From assembly GCA_029548365.1 (NCBI GenBank), contig JAKPNN010000030.1, positions 1 through 64,000 of the forward strand: a stretch of DNA of 64,000 nucleotides. The letters run 5' to 3'. Of this stretch, positions 29,251-54,946 are shown one piece after another. The stretch's first letter is position 1, and each line of letters starts with the position of its first letter. The translations under genes and the position numbers were made by a program. The notes under the pieces were generated by a model. The model worked only from the letters and a program-made list of their open reading frames with translations, was not told the DNA's origin and ran no database searches. The DNA is from Chloroflexota bacterium. GTDB lineage: Bacteria > Chloroflexota > Anaerolineae > Anaerolineales > Anaerolineaceae.

Positions 29251-29290
29251 AAAATATTATAAATTTTAAAAATCTCTTTCACAAACTCGA

Positions 29291-29814
29291 ACCATCGACC
29301 TTCGCGCAGCACCCCCGAAGCGCAGCAGAGGGGGCAGGATGTGAACCCTGATGGGTGCATTATTCTTAAAACAAAATGGGCGCGGACTGCTCAGCGCTCG
29401 AACCATCGACCTTCGCGCAGCACCCCCGAAGCGCAGCGCAGGGGGCAGGATGTGAACCCTGATGGGTATATTATCCTTAAACCAAAATGGGCGCGGACTG
29501 CGAAGCGCTCGAACCATCGACCTTCGCGCAGCACCCCCGAAGCGCAGCGGAGGGGGCAGGATGTGAACCCTGATGGGTATATTATCCTTAAACCAAAATG
29601 GGTGCGAACTGCGTAGCGCTCGAACCATCGACCTTCGCGCAGCACCCCCGAAGCGCAGCGCAGGGGGCAGGATGTGAACCCTGATGGGTATATTATCCTT
29701 AAACCAAAATGGGCGCGAATGGACTCGAACCATCGACCTTCGCGCAGCACCCCCGAAGCGCAGCGGAGGGGGCAGGATGTGAACCCTGATGGGTATATTA
29801 TCATTAAACCAAAA
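29291..29814 (-). repeat. Tandem 111/105-base units (tRNA-Val 3' half)
   Basis: Five consecutive units start at anchors 29297, 29408, 29519, 29630 and 29735. The first three steps are exactly 111 bases; the last two are 105 because the T-arm insert is absent and the normal TTCGAGTCC is restored. The units are nearly identical, so the expansion is recent or homogenised. Confidence 0.85.
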
Positions 29815-29888
<74 letters not shown>

Positions 29889-47995: not shown

Positions 47996-50530
47996 TCAAC
48001 TGCGCAAGACGGCGTCCAATTCCTGATCCAGCAGTGAGATGATGCGCTGGCGCAGTTTGCTCACATCCCGATCCGTCAGGGTGCGGTCGGGAGCCGTATA
48101 GGTCAGGTTGAAAGCCAGGCTCTTTTTGCCCTCGCCGATTTGCTTTCCGCGATAGATATCAAATAACTGCACCCGGGCCAGGTAGTCACCGCCTCCTTTG
48201 CGCAGCACGGCTTCCACCTCGGTAGCCGTCACGGCTTCATCAACGATCACTGCCAGGTCTTCCAGGACGGGCGGGTAAGCCGGGAGCGGCTCAACATCAA
48301 ATAAGCTCCGGGAAGCAGCCAGCAGGAGGTCCAGGTCAATTTCTGCCAAATAAACCGGTGGATCGCCCAGCTCGGTGTTGACCTTCACCAACGGGTGCAG
48401 TTCACCCATGACTCCCAGCACGTAGCCAGCGTGCACGATTTCAGCAGTCTTACCCGGGTGCAGGCTGGGGCGCTCGGAACGGCGGTATTCAATCTCATGA
48501 ACATGCAAACCTGCCAGCATCCTTTCAACAATGCCTTTCAGGTCATAAAAATCCATCCAGTCGGATTCACCATCTGACCAGTGCGGCAGGTCCCGCAACC
48601 CCATCAACCCGATGGAGAGCATCTGCTTTTCATGCGGCAATTCCTGCCCATCCACCGGCAGGAATACCGGCCCGATTTCAAAGAACGCCAGGCGCTGATC
48701 GAGATGGCGATTGTATTCCAGGGCTTCCAGCATGGACGCCAGGATGTTGCGACGCATCACCCGCCGTTCGACGCTGATGGGGTTCTTAATCTCGACATAG
48801 TCCTCAGTCGGCACACCATAACCCGAGGGGAAACAACGCGCTTCTCGCTCAGGAGAGGTCATCCGGTAAGCCACCAGCTCCTGCAATCCCAGGTTAACCA
48901 GCAGGTCGCGCAGCGTCTCCTGCATCATCAACCCCGGGTCAACAATTTGCGGGGGCAGGGGTTGATCCAGCCGTCGCGCGGGAATTCTGTCATAACCGTA
49001 GATGCGGCTGATCTCTTCCAGCAGGTCTGCCCTACCGACCAGTCCCTCGCTAATATCCAACCGGTGCGGCGGTGTATGCGCCGTGATCCTGTCGCCGTCG
49101 ACCTCACACACGAACGCCAGCCGCGTGAGGATCTCTGCCATCTCCTGCGCGCTGATCTCGGTGCCCAGGCTCTGGTTAACCCACTCTGCTGAGAGGGTGA
49201 TCACCGGGTCCTCAGGCGGGTTGGGGTAGTGATCCACCAGTCCCTCAGCCACCTGACCGCCCCCCCATTCCAGCATACGTTTCAGTGTCATTCTGACAGC
49301 AAGGTCAGCCAGGGCAGGATGCACGCCGCGGCTGAAACGGTAAGCGGCTTCTGAGCTAATTTTGAGCTTGCTGACGGTTTTGCGAATGTTGATAAAATTC
49401 CACGAGGCGCCTTCCAGCAGCACATTGACGGTATTGGGATTGACTTCACTTTCCACGCCGCCCATCACCCCGGCCAGAGACAGGGGTCCGGCGGTATCGC
49501 TGACCAGTTCCATTTCCGCGTCCAGGGTGTGCGCCACCCCATCCAGCGTAGTTAGAGCTTCGCCTGGGTGTGCCGTCCGGGTAATGATTGTGGGAACACC
49601 GCCAGCGGCGCGCTTGACGAGAACATCGTAGTCGAAGGCGTGCAGCGGCTCACCCAATTCCAGCATCACATAGTTGGTCGCGTCTACAATGCAATTGATT
49701 GGACGCATCCCCGCCAGGTTCAGGCGCCGGCGCACCCAGTAGGGGCTGGGCTTGATGGTGACGCCTTCAATTAAACCCAATACGAAGCGTGGGTTAAGCT
49801 CAGGGTCTTTGATCTCAATCGCGGCACGGCCTTTTATAGATGGACCGCTCATCTCAACGCTCGTATCCGGTTTCTTAAGCGGTTTTGCCAGGGCTGCGGC
49901 GATCTCGCGCGCCACTCCCCATACGCTGGCATCGCGCATCATGTTCGGCAGGATATCCACATCAATGACCGCATCGCCCATGTAGTCCACCAGGGGCATA
50001 CCGGTCGGCGCATCTTCATCCAGGATGATCACACCTTCATGTTCATCCGAGATTCCCAGCTCCTTTTCAGAGCAGATCATCGACGAGGATTCAACGCCGC
50101 GGATTTTCATTTTCTTCAGGGTCATCAGCTTTCGTCCAGGTTGGTGCCCATCATAAAGAATCGCGCCCTCCCGGGCATAGGCGACCTTTAAGGGCTGCGC
50201 AAGCGGACCCGCGCCCTTGTATTCAAACAGGTTTGGCGCACCGGTCAGCACGGTGAATTCCTCACTGCCGTCGTTCACCCGGCACAGCACCAGGCGGTCA
50301 GCGTTGGGATGCGGCATGACCTCATCGATCTGCGCCACCACAAATTTGTCCTCAGGCCAGCTCAGCCCGGTGTACTTAAATTCGTGCTTTTCGCCGGGCG
50401 GCATCGGCAAACCCACCCGTCGAATCTCTTCGACCTCTAACCCGACCATTGTCATCGTCTTCGCCAGGGTTTCAAGATCAAGTTCGTCAAGTTCTACATA
50501 TTCTGCTAACCAGGATAAGGGTAATTTCAT
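47996..50530 (-). CDS. pheT: Phenylalanine-tRNA ligase beta subunit
   Basis: An 844-residue subunit that, with PheS, charges tRNA-Phe as an (alpha-beta)2 enzyme. The order is the N-terminal domain, an EMAP-like tRNA-binding domain (KFVVAQIDEVMPHPNADRL near 61-80), B3/B4 editing region, B5, catalytic-like core and the C-terminal anticodon-binding FDX-ACB domain (near 750-844). Length is typical. GAGG lies just before ATG 50530. In most bacteria pheT follows pheS directly; here a four-helix-bundle gene separates them by about 570 bases, so read-through from the pheS T-box promoter may be reduced. Confidence 0.96.
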   Translation of the reverse strand: MKLPLSWLAEYVELDELDLETLAKTMTMVGLEVEEIRRVGLPMPPGEKHEFKYTGLSWPEDKFVVAQIDEVMPHPNADRLVLCRVNDGSEEFTVLTGAPNLFEYKGAGPLAQPLKVAYAREGAILYDGHQPGRKLMTLKKMKIRGVESSSMICSEKELGISDEHEGVIILDEDAPTGMPLVDYMGDAVIDVDILPNMMRDASVWGVAREIAAALAKPLKKPDTSVEMSGPSIKGRAAIEIKDPELNPRFVLGLIEGVTIKPSPYWVRRRLNLAGMRPINCIVDATNYVMLELGEPLHAFDYDVLVKRAAGGVPTIITRTAHPGEALTTLDGVAHTLDAEMELVSDTAGPLSLAGVMGGVESEVNPNTVNVLLEGASWNFINIRKTVSKLKISSEAAYRFSRGVHPALADLAVRMTLKRMLEWGGGQVAEGLVDHYPNPPEDPVITLSAEWVNQSLGTEISAQEMAEILTRLAFVCEVDGDRITAHTPPHRLDISEGLVGRADLLEEISRIYGYDRIPARRLDQPLPPQIVDPGLMMQETLRDLLVNLGLQELVAYRMTSPEREARCFPSGYGVPTEDYVEIKNPISVERRVMRRNILASMLEALEYNRHLDQRLAFFEIGPVFLPVDGQELPHEKQMLSIGLMGLRDLPHWSDGESDWMDFYDLKGIVERMLAGLHVHEIEYRRSERPSLHPGKTAEIVHAGYVLGVMGELHPLVKVNTELGDPPVYLAEIDLDLLLAASRSLFDVEPLPAYPPVLEDLAVIVDEAVTATEVEAVLRKGGGDYLARVQLFDIYRGKQIGEGKKSLAFNLTYTAPDRTLTDRDVSKLRQRIISLLDQELDAVLRS

Positions 50531-50576
50531 GGGGCCTCACGATCTAATTTAGATACAATGTAAATATTTGAGTATA

Positions 50577-50597
50577 GTGAATTGTGAATGGTGAATG
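50577..50597 (+). repeat. GTGAATN heptamer array (left boundary)
   Basis: Three direct heptamers, GTGAATT, GTGAATG, GTGAATG. They lie 12 bases after the end of the four-helix-bundle gene (on its downstream side) and are in the opposite orientation to the array at the other end. Confidence 0.7.
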
Positions 50598-50608
50598 GTC
50601 ATTGCAGA

Positions 50609-51076
50609 TCATTCCTGATTATTAGAATTGATGTGTTCATCGGTGACATAGATCGATATATCTTCTGAAATTAAATTTGATCCTGGCTCCTGATCACCGC
50701 GCTTGCTGTGGTTAAGATATTTGATGTATCCATGGATTAGCTTCAGAATTACCCGCATTTCCTGAATCACCAGTGTTTTCTCATCATCTGATACATAACC
50801 TTGACTGGCTGCTAATTCGATATGACTTGATAATTCCATCAAAGAGCCACGGGCTATGTAACAGAACCTGATGGATTCTTGATAATAATAACGACCATAA
50901 CCTTCAGCGATATTGGCAGGTATACTAGCCGCAGCGCGCCTGATTTGGCTGGCCAGACCGTATTTCTCTTCAATAGGTAATCCAGGCAAAACATGCTGAT
51001 ACACCATTTTTGCCAGCTTCTGGGAAGCCTGATATGCCTGTAATCTGTTTAATCCTTCCATCTTTTCGCGCACCAT
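50609..51076 (-). CDS. Four-helix-bundle protein (S23/23S rRNA-IVP-like)
   Basis: A 155-residue helical protein of the family found in 23S rRNA intervening sequences and related to the Avd accessory protein of diversity-generating retroelements. Clear markers are LQAYQASQKLAKMVYQ at the start, the SQIRRAAASIPANIAEG motif and a third helix with FCYIARGSLMELSSHI. ATG 51076 lies in the boundary repeat; ATG 51061 is an alternative start. The 25 C-terminal residues are polar and variable. No reverse transcriptase is nearby. It sits between pheS and pheT, flanked by inverted heptamer arrays. Its role in the cell is unknown. Confidence 0.88.
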   Translation of the reverse strand: MVREKMEGLNRLQAYQASQKLAKMVYQHVLPGLPIEEKYGLASQIRRAAASIPANIAEGYGRYYYQESIRFCYIARGSLMELSSHIELAASQGYVSDDEKTLVIQEMRVILKLIHGYIKYLNHSKRGDQEPGSNLISEDISIYVTDEHINSNNQE

Positions 51077-51094
51077 TCCCTATTCACTATTCAC
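51074..51094 (-). repeat. GTGAATN heptamer array (right boundary)
   Basis: Three direct heptamers on the minus strand, GTGAATA, GTGAATA, GGGAATG, beginning 7 bases after the pheS stop codon. They are inverted relative to the array at 50577. Confidence 0.7.
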
Positions 51095-51100
51095 ACTCTC

Positions 51101-52144
51101 TCAAAACTGCTTCAAAAATCGTACGTCATTATTGCGGAAATGACGGATGTCGTCGATACGATAGCGCATCAGGGTGCTGCGGTCGACGCCCATGCCGGCG
51201 GCAAACCCGGAATAGACTGTCGGGTCGTACCCGCCATATTCCAGCACCAGCGGGTGCACCATCCCACACCCGAGGATCTCCAGCCAGCCGGTCTCTTTAC
51301 ACACCGGGCAGCCCTCTCCATTGCACACAAAGCAGCCCACGTCTAACTCTGCACTGGGTTCGGTGAAGGGGAAATGCGACGGTCGCAGGCGTGTGCGCGC
51401 ATCCTCGCCAAACAGGCGGCGGGCAAAATCGTCCAGGGTGCCCTTCATCTCCGCGAAGCTGACCTGCTTGCCCACCACCAGCACCTCAACCTGGACAAAC
51501 TCAATCTCGCTGCGCGCCGAGAGCTGCTCGTAGCGCATCGTCGCACCGGGCAAGATGACCCGAATGGGCTCTGGCGCCCGCGCCCGCATCACACGGATTT
51601 GCCCGGGAGAGGTATGCGTGCGCAGTAAAACGCCGTCCTTCGTGGTATAGAACGTGTCCCACATGTCCCTGGCGGGATGGTAGGGCGGCATGTTCAGGTA
51701 AGTGAAGTTGAAATCATCCGTCTCCACCTCGGGTGAGGGATACACCTGGAAGCCCATATCACCAAAAATCTGCGTGATTTGCCGCAGAACCTGGGTCAGG
51801 GGATGGAGCCGACCGCGGGTCACCGGGCGGCCTGGCAGGGTGATATCCAGTTTCTCAACCTCCAGTGATTGTTTGAGGGCAACCGCCTCCAGCATCTCGC
51901 GCTTCTCCTCCAGGCCTGCCTCCAGCGCCTGGCGCACCTCGTTAGCCGCCTTGCCCATCAGCGGACGCAGTTCCTTATCCATGCTTCCCATGCTGCTGAA
52001 CACAGCCATCACCGCAGAACTACGCCCCAGGTGGGTCACCCGCCAGGCTTCCAGGGCATCCAGGTCAACCACCCCTGATAGGGCACCCAGCGCAACAGAC
52101 TGGATCTGCGCCAGTTTTTCTAATTCTGTCTGTTTCGATGTCAT
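51101..52144 (-). CDS. pheS: Phenylalanine-tRNA ligase alpha subunit
   Basis: A 347-residue class II catalytic subunit. Motif 2 and motif 3 regions are clear (HTSPGQIRVM, FTEPSAELDVGC and GCGMVHPLVLEYGG), and the N-terminal coiled coil is present. A four-Cys cluster, CFVCNGEGCPVC, near the active site looks zinc-binding, as in several bacterial PheS. The start is ATG 52144 with AGGAGG 8 bases upstream; a TTG codon just before it is less likely. It is preceded by a promoter and T-box leader and followed by the four-helix-bundle gene. Confidence 0.95.
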   Translation of the reverse strand: MTSKQTELEKLAQIQSVALGALSGVVDLDALEAWRVTHLGRSSAVMAVFSSMGSMDKELRPLMGKAANEVRQALEAGLEEKREMLEAVALKQSLEVEKLDITLPGRPVTRGRLHPLTQVLRQITQIFGDMGFQVYPSPEVETDDFNFTYLNMPPYHPARDMWDTFYTTKDGVLLRTHTSPGQIRVMRARAPEPIRVILPGATMRYEQLSARSEIEFVQVEVLVVGKQVSFAEMKGTLDDFARRLFGEDARTRLRPSHFPFTEPSAELDVGCFVCNGEGCPVCKETGWLEILGCGMVHPLVLEYGGYDPTVYSGFAAGMGVDRSTLMRYRIDDIRHFRNNDVRFLKQF

Positions 52145-52198
52145 CAATCCTTCCTCCTTAATCCCGCCAGTTTTGGCAGGAGAGCAAACCTGTTAAAT

Positions 52199-52485
52199 AA
52201 AAAGCCCGTCCAAAAGGACGGATTGACCGCGGTACCACCTTTTTTGGCATTGCAGGGTCGCTGCAAAGCCCGCTCACCACCAATGGAACCCGATGCCATT
52301 GGCATCCCCGGTTAACGGTAGGGTCACCGGCCCAGACTACCAGCAAAAAATTGCCTTCACCCGGGCAGCTCGAGAGTGAACTTCAATTGGGTTCAGCAGG
52401 GTGTGGGTCTCAGTCTCAGCCCGCACCGCCCTGTCAGCCTCTGCCAGCCTACTTTCCTCTGTCGTTGCTGTTTGTTATTCGTCTC
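52199..52485 (-). promoter_or_regulatory. T-box leader of pheS
   Basis: A tRNA-sensing leader. On the minus strand the T-box core GGTGGTACCGCGG spans about 52226-52239 and is followed by a hairpin (52206-52211 with 52216-52221) and a T-run, the terminator arm. The bulge reads UGGU, fitting a tRNA ending ACCA. Stem I starts near GAGGAAAGTAGG. A UUC triplet in GAAGTTCACTC is a plausible specifier. Uncharged tRNA-Phe would prevent termination and raise pheS expression. Confidence 0.88.
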
Positions 52486-52520: not shown

Positions 52521-52527
52521 GGGAAGA

Positions 52528-52548
52528 GTGAATAGTGAATAGTGATCC
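52528..52548 (+). repeat. GTGAATN heptamer array
   Basis: GTGAATA, GTGAATA, GTGATCC. It lies just upstream of the pheS promoter, in the gap to thrS, and is followed by a GC-rich stretch with TTCGCG and AGCAC words. Confidence 0.65.
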
Positions 52549-52694
52549 CGCTTCGCGTAGCACTCCCTGTGCCCTGTAAGGGTATTGAGCGCCTTCGCTT
52601 GGGGACGATAATGGTTAATGGTAGGTAGGAAAACAGGAATCAGGCAGTAGGAATTGGGTAGTAGGAATTGGGGGATCATGTGTCGCGCGGCAAA

Positions 52695-54925: not shown

Positions 54926-54946
54926 GTGAATTGTGAGTGGTGAGTA
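54926..54946 (+). repeat. GTGAATN-like heptamer array
   Basis: GTGAATT, GTGAGTG, GTGAGTA followed by further degenerate copies to about 54955. It is in the gap between thrS and the Fpg/Nei remnant. Confidence 0.5.

Follow-up and report, generated by a model that had tools for sequence, protein, structure and literature searches.

The window, by which we mean the whole 64,000-nt stretch of a Chloroflexota contig that was analysed, contains pheS and pheT genes that are separated by a small gene lying between inverted arrays of a short repeat, and the question raised by this locus is what this arrangement is and how it arose. An earlier note, made from the sequence alone, had assigned the intervening gene to the S23/IVP family, in the same direction as its neighbours, had described flanking inverted GTGAATN arrays that reach close to the pheS stop codon, and had proposed that gene and arrays together make up a mobile unit which landed in an intercistronic site able to tolerate it. 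Profiles and coordinates confirm the identity of the gene, its position and the common direction of all three genes, and the arrays are placed as described, ending 6 bases from the stop codon (Table 1).

Table 1. Features of the pheS–pheT region in the window
Feature	Position	Strand	Remarks
pheS	51101–52147	−	Upstream host gene; stop codon abuts the cassette
5' heptamer array	51071–51094	−	GTGAATA GTGAATA GGGAATG on the − strand; 3.4 copies of 7
S23/IVP gene, type A	50609–51076	−	155 aa ORF, PF05635; likely true start 51061
3' heptamer array	50577–50599	+	Inverted relative to the 5' array; 3.3 copies of 7
pheT leader	50531–50568	−	Outside the cassette; similar to the leader in the empty G009 junction
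pheT	47996–50530	−	Downstream host gene

The ORF matches PF05635 with an E-value of 2.3e-31 (108.6 bits against a curated cut-off of 33.8) as well as TIGR02436 (105.9 bits against 24), and both the profiles and the four-helix-bundle fold place it in the S23/IVP family. An AF2 model of the protein (pLDDT 86.5) matches the XCC0516 structure 2gsc with a TM-score of 0.94 and Avd (4dwl) with 0.84 at a sequence identity of about 10 %; it also matches BT_0352 (2rld) and Avd in complexes of diversity-generating retroelements (DGRs). The ATG at 51076 falls within the 5' array, and the internal ATG at 51061–51059 (MEGLNRL...), which is common to other type A copies (see below), is the more likely start. 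TRF recovered both arrays as tandem repeats and, independently, they were recognised as an inverted repeat of 23–25 nt that is 84–87 % complementary, with degenerate copies of the 3' array beginning at 50570, and a three-unit heptamer pattern gave seven matches in the window compared with 0.06 expected from shuffles. Gene and arrays together form a cassette of about 520 bp, whose inverted terminal repeats, as in insertion sequences, here take the form of heptamer arrays; no transposase or recombinase was found in the cassette, the sole gene of which matches PF05635 alone. The transcript is predicted to fold with the gene in a loop closed by the two arrays, which pair as a terminal stem (z −2.96) like the one that inverted ends form around the S23 ORF of 23S rRNA intervening sequences (IVSs). 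The window contains no rRNA, however, and the cassette lies between pheS and pheT. Elsewhere in the window, a T-box-like signature, GGTGGTACCGCGG (− strand), was seen upstream of pheS at about 52190–52480, with no Rfam match at the gathering threshold, and a 111-bp unit that looks tRNA-derived (CTCGAACC) is repeated five times in tandem at 29286–29888, running into a tRNA gene (29815–29888, −).

Arrays of this kind are general companions of S23 genes. Across 221 S23 loci, a period-7 array was present on at least one side in 84 % of 112 from Chloroflexota, in 84 % of 79 from many other phyla (a sample drawn with one Chloroflexota protein and hence biased to relatives of one subtype) and in 77 % of 30 from viral contigs, compared with 5.5, 6.3 and 11 % of the respective control windows; by the definition used, about 16 % of the bacterial loci have no array, which could reflect decay. 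Within 100 bp of S23 genes, period-7 arrays make up 17–25 % of the sequence (16–22 % on viral contigs), whilst their coverage further away is mostly 0–2 % and that of other periods is about 0–3 %. Intergenic gaps contained an array in 88 of 165 cases beside S23 genes and in 27 of 212 cases elsewhere (P = 2e-17). Additionally, upstream and downstream arrays match each other as reverse complements (0.653 vs 0.467; 0 of 10,000 permutations), also with a same-genome control (0.671 vs 0.490, P = 3e-4), and in 90 of 99 elements the predicted RNA pairing between the element's two arms is better than that with foreign arms. The order in which unit variants follow one another in one arm is only weakly mirrored in the other (mean z 0.53).

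The correlation between gene and array unit is modest (Mantel r 0.224, permutation maximum 0.110), relatives sharing both. Pairs of loci are not independent, because related genomes share gene and unit, and it is the controls for site and genome that guard against this. When such pairs were compared, a unit was shared at different sites by 25 % of pairs with S23 proteins at least 60 % identical and by 1 % of pairs below 60 %; at the same site, the corresponding values were 55 and 8 %. The heptamer unit follows the S23 subtype, and neither the site nor the genome, which supports the reading of gene and arrays as a unit.

At the pheS–pheT junction itself we compared 16 genomes of the genus, 14 of which have a readable junction. 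An S23 gene is present in 13 of these 14, with the junction of G009 being empty (44 bp, containing one GGTGAATGG). The genes form two clades: type A (G000, which is the window's genome, G001, G002, G005, G013 and G014), with inverted GTGAATN arrays, and type B (G004, G007, G008, G010, G011, G012 and G015), with inverted GGTATTA arrays. In the pairs measured, A and B proteins are 37–50 % identical, the lower value being the lowest S23 identity at this site. A tree of pheS and pheT intermixes A, B and empty junctions, with 100 % support for each of the groups {G012 B, G015 B, G001 A}, {G013 A, G008 B} and {G000 A, G009 empty, G004 B}. Within the first of these, G012 and G001 have flanking DNA that is 92–93 % identical, the similarity extending to about 30 bp beyond the pheS stop codon and resuming 25 bp before pheT, whilst the cassettes in between are unrelated. 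Several type B junctions retain type A heptamers beside pheS, and no junction carrying both genes was seen in the genus. Gene and arrays belong together, and at this one junction different types replace each other along with their own arrays, or are missing, in close relatives. The earlier note would have been contradicted by one gene passed down vertically to all relatives; the genus has two types and one empty junction instead. The comparison of relatives that the note called for gave an empty site, but neither a target duplication nor a transposition event was seen, the closest occupied and empty pairs being different species and the nucleotide pairs compared for insertion boundaries being too diverged or fully syntenic.

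Cassettes of a single type also vary internally. The type B cassettes of G012 and G015 are 93 % identical in their 5' part and then 56–86 % identical per 60-bp block inside, with differences at 15–22 % of four-fold sites in the flanks vs 63 % in the S23 gene; because the two share a 5' part and diverge inside, homologous recombination also reshapes cassettes. In other genera of the family, the junction is empty in 24 of 25 cases, with gaps of at most 82 bp; G419, from another genus of this family, has its own S23 gene there with worn arrays, and an S23 gene is also found at pheS–pheT in G282, from another family. The ancestral junction was probably empty and, judging by these comparisons, has since been filled, swapped and emptied repeatedly. 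Present occupancy is as old as the genus rather than a fresh insertion.

A second site at which gene and arrays are swapped together lies in a related family, between E1 (TPP-dependent alpha/beta) and E2 acyltransferase genes, whose names we assigned by reading the sequences. Type X, in five genomes (78–92 % identical), has GTTGACA/CCAACTA arrays and type Y, in three genomes (88–92 % identical), has GTGATCA/ATCACTG arrays; X and Y are 29–36 % identical, and the arrays, which overlap the E1 stop codon, differ according to gene type. Furthermore, viral contigs contain an antisense S23 cassette between a pair of genes for which both occupied and empty sites were found. This pair overlaps or nearly touches in most of 13 cassette-free relatives, and in the occupied state an array provides the downstream gene with a new N-terminus. 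The scatter of types, the empty junctions and the E1–E2 swap together lend support to the idea of a mobile unit in a tolerated intercistronic site. No S23 match was obtained among INPHARED phages, and matches on plasmids were mostly from Nostocales.

Several other loci deserve mention in their own right. On viral contigs L201, L205 and L206, ORFs open with array-coded peptides (SSFLLPSSFL...), which suggests that lone heptamer arrays may lie between several genes. Genus S23 cassettes at L033, L035, L036, L044, L046, L048 and L050–L055 are, from a reading of their flanks, apparently beside surface-polysaccharide genes; some are stop-interrupted, and their heptamers are GTAGCTG, AAAGCTG and GAAGACG. 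In another family (L129 and L154), cassettes from the clade that contains A and B lie between apparent tgt and uppP genes, tgt being, like pheS, tRNA-related. One Chloroflexota genome (L150) has two S23 genes on the same strand about 1.4 kb apart.

Cassettes lie at the junctions between genes, for the most part within operons and in sense orientation. By a longest-ORF heuristic, on which all orientation counts rest, S23 genes between two codirectional genes were sense in 95 cases and antisense in 10; without the pheST loci, the sense : antisense counts were 51 : 3 for Chloroflexota, 33 : 7 for other phyla and 3 : 15 for viral contigs. The dN/dS values of 0.06–0.11, from the few pairs with unsaturated synonymous sites, point to purifying selection. 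None of six S23-rich genomes with a completeness of 97 % or more gave an RVT_1 match: G012 (6 S23 matches), G033, G043 and G268 (11 each), and G135 and G282 (10 each). The window's own genome (71 % complete) gave none either, and thus showed no partner reverse transcriptase (RT) such as a DGR has. A resident RT as a requirement for movement is disfavoured by these S23-rich, near-complete genomes.

The earlier note had also called for a search for further copies with the same ends. The window's genome contains about 30 scattered GTGAATN arrays, with none for a control pattern, and a single S23 gene, which means that such arrays do not occur at this gene alone. With these numbers, the idea that the S23 gene by itself gave rise to all of the genome's arrays was rejected. 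Almost all genus genomes have both A and B arrays, whichever S23 type is resident, and the proposal that the resident type predicts the type of lone arrays was likewise rejected, there being only a weak tendency; lone arrays are loosely tied to the resident S23. A lone GTGAATA array at 52521–52547, which precedes pheS by 371 bp, is absent from all 12 congeners examined. Further lone heptamer arrays were noted at 52635–52672 and 54926–54945, one of them similar to the type B unit (AGGAATTGGGTAGT).

We consider it probable that the locus is a small mobile cassette, in which a single S23/IVP gene is enclosed by two inverted arrays of its cognate heptamer, the mobility itself being something that we infer from sequence comparison. 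In this reading, the S23 protein, a four-helix bundle that has the Avd fold and forms rings, would recognise this heptamer in one of three forms (RNA stem, single-stranded DNA or duplex), and the arrays would be the cassette ends that get copied or joined. Strand transfer would probably be carried out by host repair or replication enzymes, because no nuclease, transposase or RT is encoded and there are many S23-rich genomes without a detectable RT; that the protein has no known catalytic domain counts against a mobile cassette. Like the IVS stems that RNase III cleaves, the array stem would free the cassette from host mRNA, which would make insertion into an operon tolerable, and sense orientation would give the S23 gene a free promoter. 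Scattered arrays may be gene-less derivatives or remnants of cassettes. Only tentatively, and with more doubt than belief, do we extend this to a pan-bacterial class of autonomous elements, each with one non-catalytic Avd-fold ring protein and cognate heptamer arrays and dependent on host enzymes for strand transfer, in which 23S rRNA IVSs would be the rRNA-dwelling members and the heptamers of Xanthomonas, Nostoc and others would be gene-less derivatives. There is a real chance that this is a distinct class of minimal mobile element rather than an IVS-like variant.

The main rival to a mobile cassette is a regulatory role, whereby S23 would bind the arrays in RNA or DNA, with the flanking arrays serving autoregulation and the scattered ones forming a regulon, and cassettes would move solely through homologous recombination and gene transfer of the ordinary kind. 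Such a regulator would sit well with strong purifying selection where this is measurable, sense orientation in operons, the many lone arrays per genome and the recombination mosaic within type B. New tight sites, however (the phage pair, and pheS–pheT, entered in the genus and separately in G419 and G282), need insertion and not allele exchange, the lone array upstream of pheS, the single one compared, is missing from all 12 other congeners, unlike a conserved regulon, and antisense cassettes exist in phage operons; as such, we regard this account as unlikely. It is improbable that movement is RNA-mediated, with a trans-acting RT copying the stem-bounded transcript and S23 acting like the Avd of DGRs. 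The fold common to S23 and Avd, including Avd in DGR ribonucleoprotein structures, the frequency of PF05635 beside DGR RTs in a survey (PMC10053308), and the strong sense bias together with a predicted array RNA stem would all favour this route, and a past or phage-borne RT is possible, but the absence of RVT_1 from the six S23-rich genomes and from that of the window weighs against it.

Old vertical inheritance, from a genus ancestor with A and B in tandem at pheS–pheT whose descendants lost one or both, agrees with occupancy in nearly all informative congeners and with the type A heptamers beside pheS in several type B junctions. It would nevertheless require many parallel losses, even within the tight G012/G015/G001 clade, whilst no two-gene junction was seen, and it leaves the E1–E2 swap, G419, G282 and the phage case unexplained; we hold it to be very improbable. 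If, instead, arrays grew by slippage in intergenic DNA and S23 genes were there by chance, lone arrays in many places and the differing unit number between Coxiella strains (PMC4990558) would be accounted for, but hardly the excess beside S23 genes over other intergenic gaps, the reverse-complement matching within elements or a unit that tracks gene type across sites. Mere coincidence of this sort is scarcely credible.

A mobile cassette of the kind that we favour has parallels among known systems. REP/BIME elements with RAYT transposases likewise have one gene between inverted short repeats and many gene-less copies in the genome; they differ in that their repeat is a palindrome rather than a tandem heptamer, and the S23 protein is no Y1 transposase. 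The Avd of DGRs is a four-helix bundle of the S23 fold, solved S23 relatives having five chains, but a DGR has an RT, and none was found in the window's genome or in many S23-rich ones. The 23S rRNA IVSs with an S23 ORF of Leptospira and Coxiella are like the window's cassette in protein family, size and stem-forming inverted ends, although they sit in rRNA and the cassette sits between protein genes of an operon. In the Coxiella IVS, tandem GACAGAT heptamers precede the S23 ORF, and there is a terminal stem with an RNase III cut in the first repeat (PMC4990558). This is the sole mention of heptamers beside an S23 ORF that we found, and it concerns direct repeats of one element; gene-specific, jointly swapped arrays are not described there. 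A search to which subscription journals and preprints were mostly external found no paper on a general pairing of S23 genes with heptamers, and the novelty of gene-specific arrays around the family is accordingly provisional. IVS mobility was proposed in 1993, according to a citation in PMC4990558, and rRNA members of PF05635 have been suspected of it for decades (PMC4990558); the matched arrays make that question directly testable, and a type-specific array pair gives this widespread family a concrete hypothesis, the recognition of its own heptamer. The heptameric repeats of Xanthomonas (GGGAATC) and Nostoc are intergenic, most commonly of four units and often in facing inverted pairs (70–75 cases per Xanthomonas genome), and lie at different genes in two species (PMC4692102). 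They thus resemble the arrays seen here, but were described as G-quadruplex repeats with no S23 link in that paper; XCC0516, the S23 protein with a solved structure, comes from Xanthomonas campestris. S23 cassettes may account for some of the heptamer repeats known from bacterial genomes, and the matched arrays tie the 23S rRNA IVSs to far more numerous elements in phages and protein operons.
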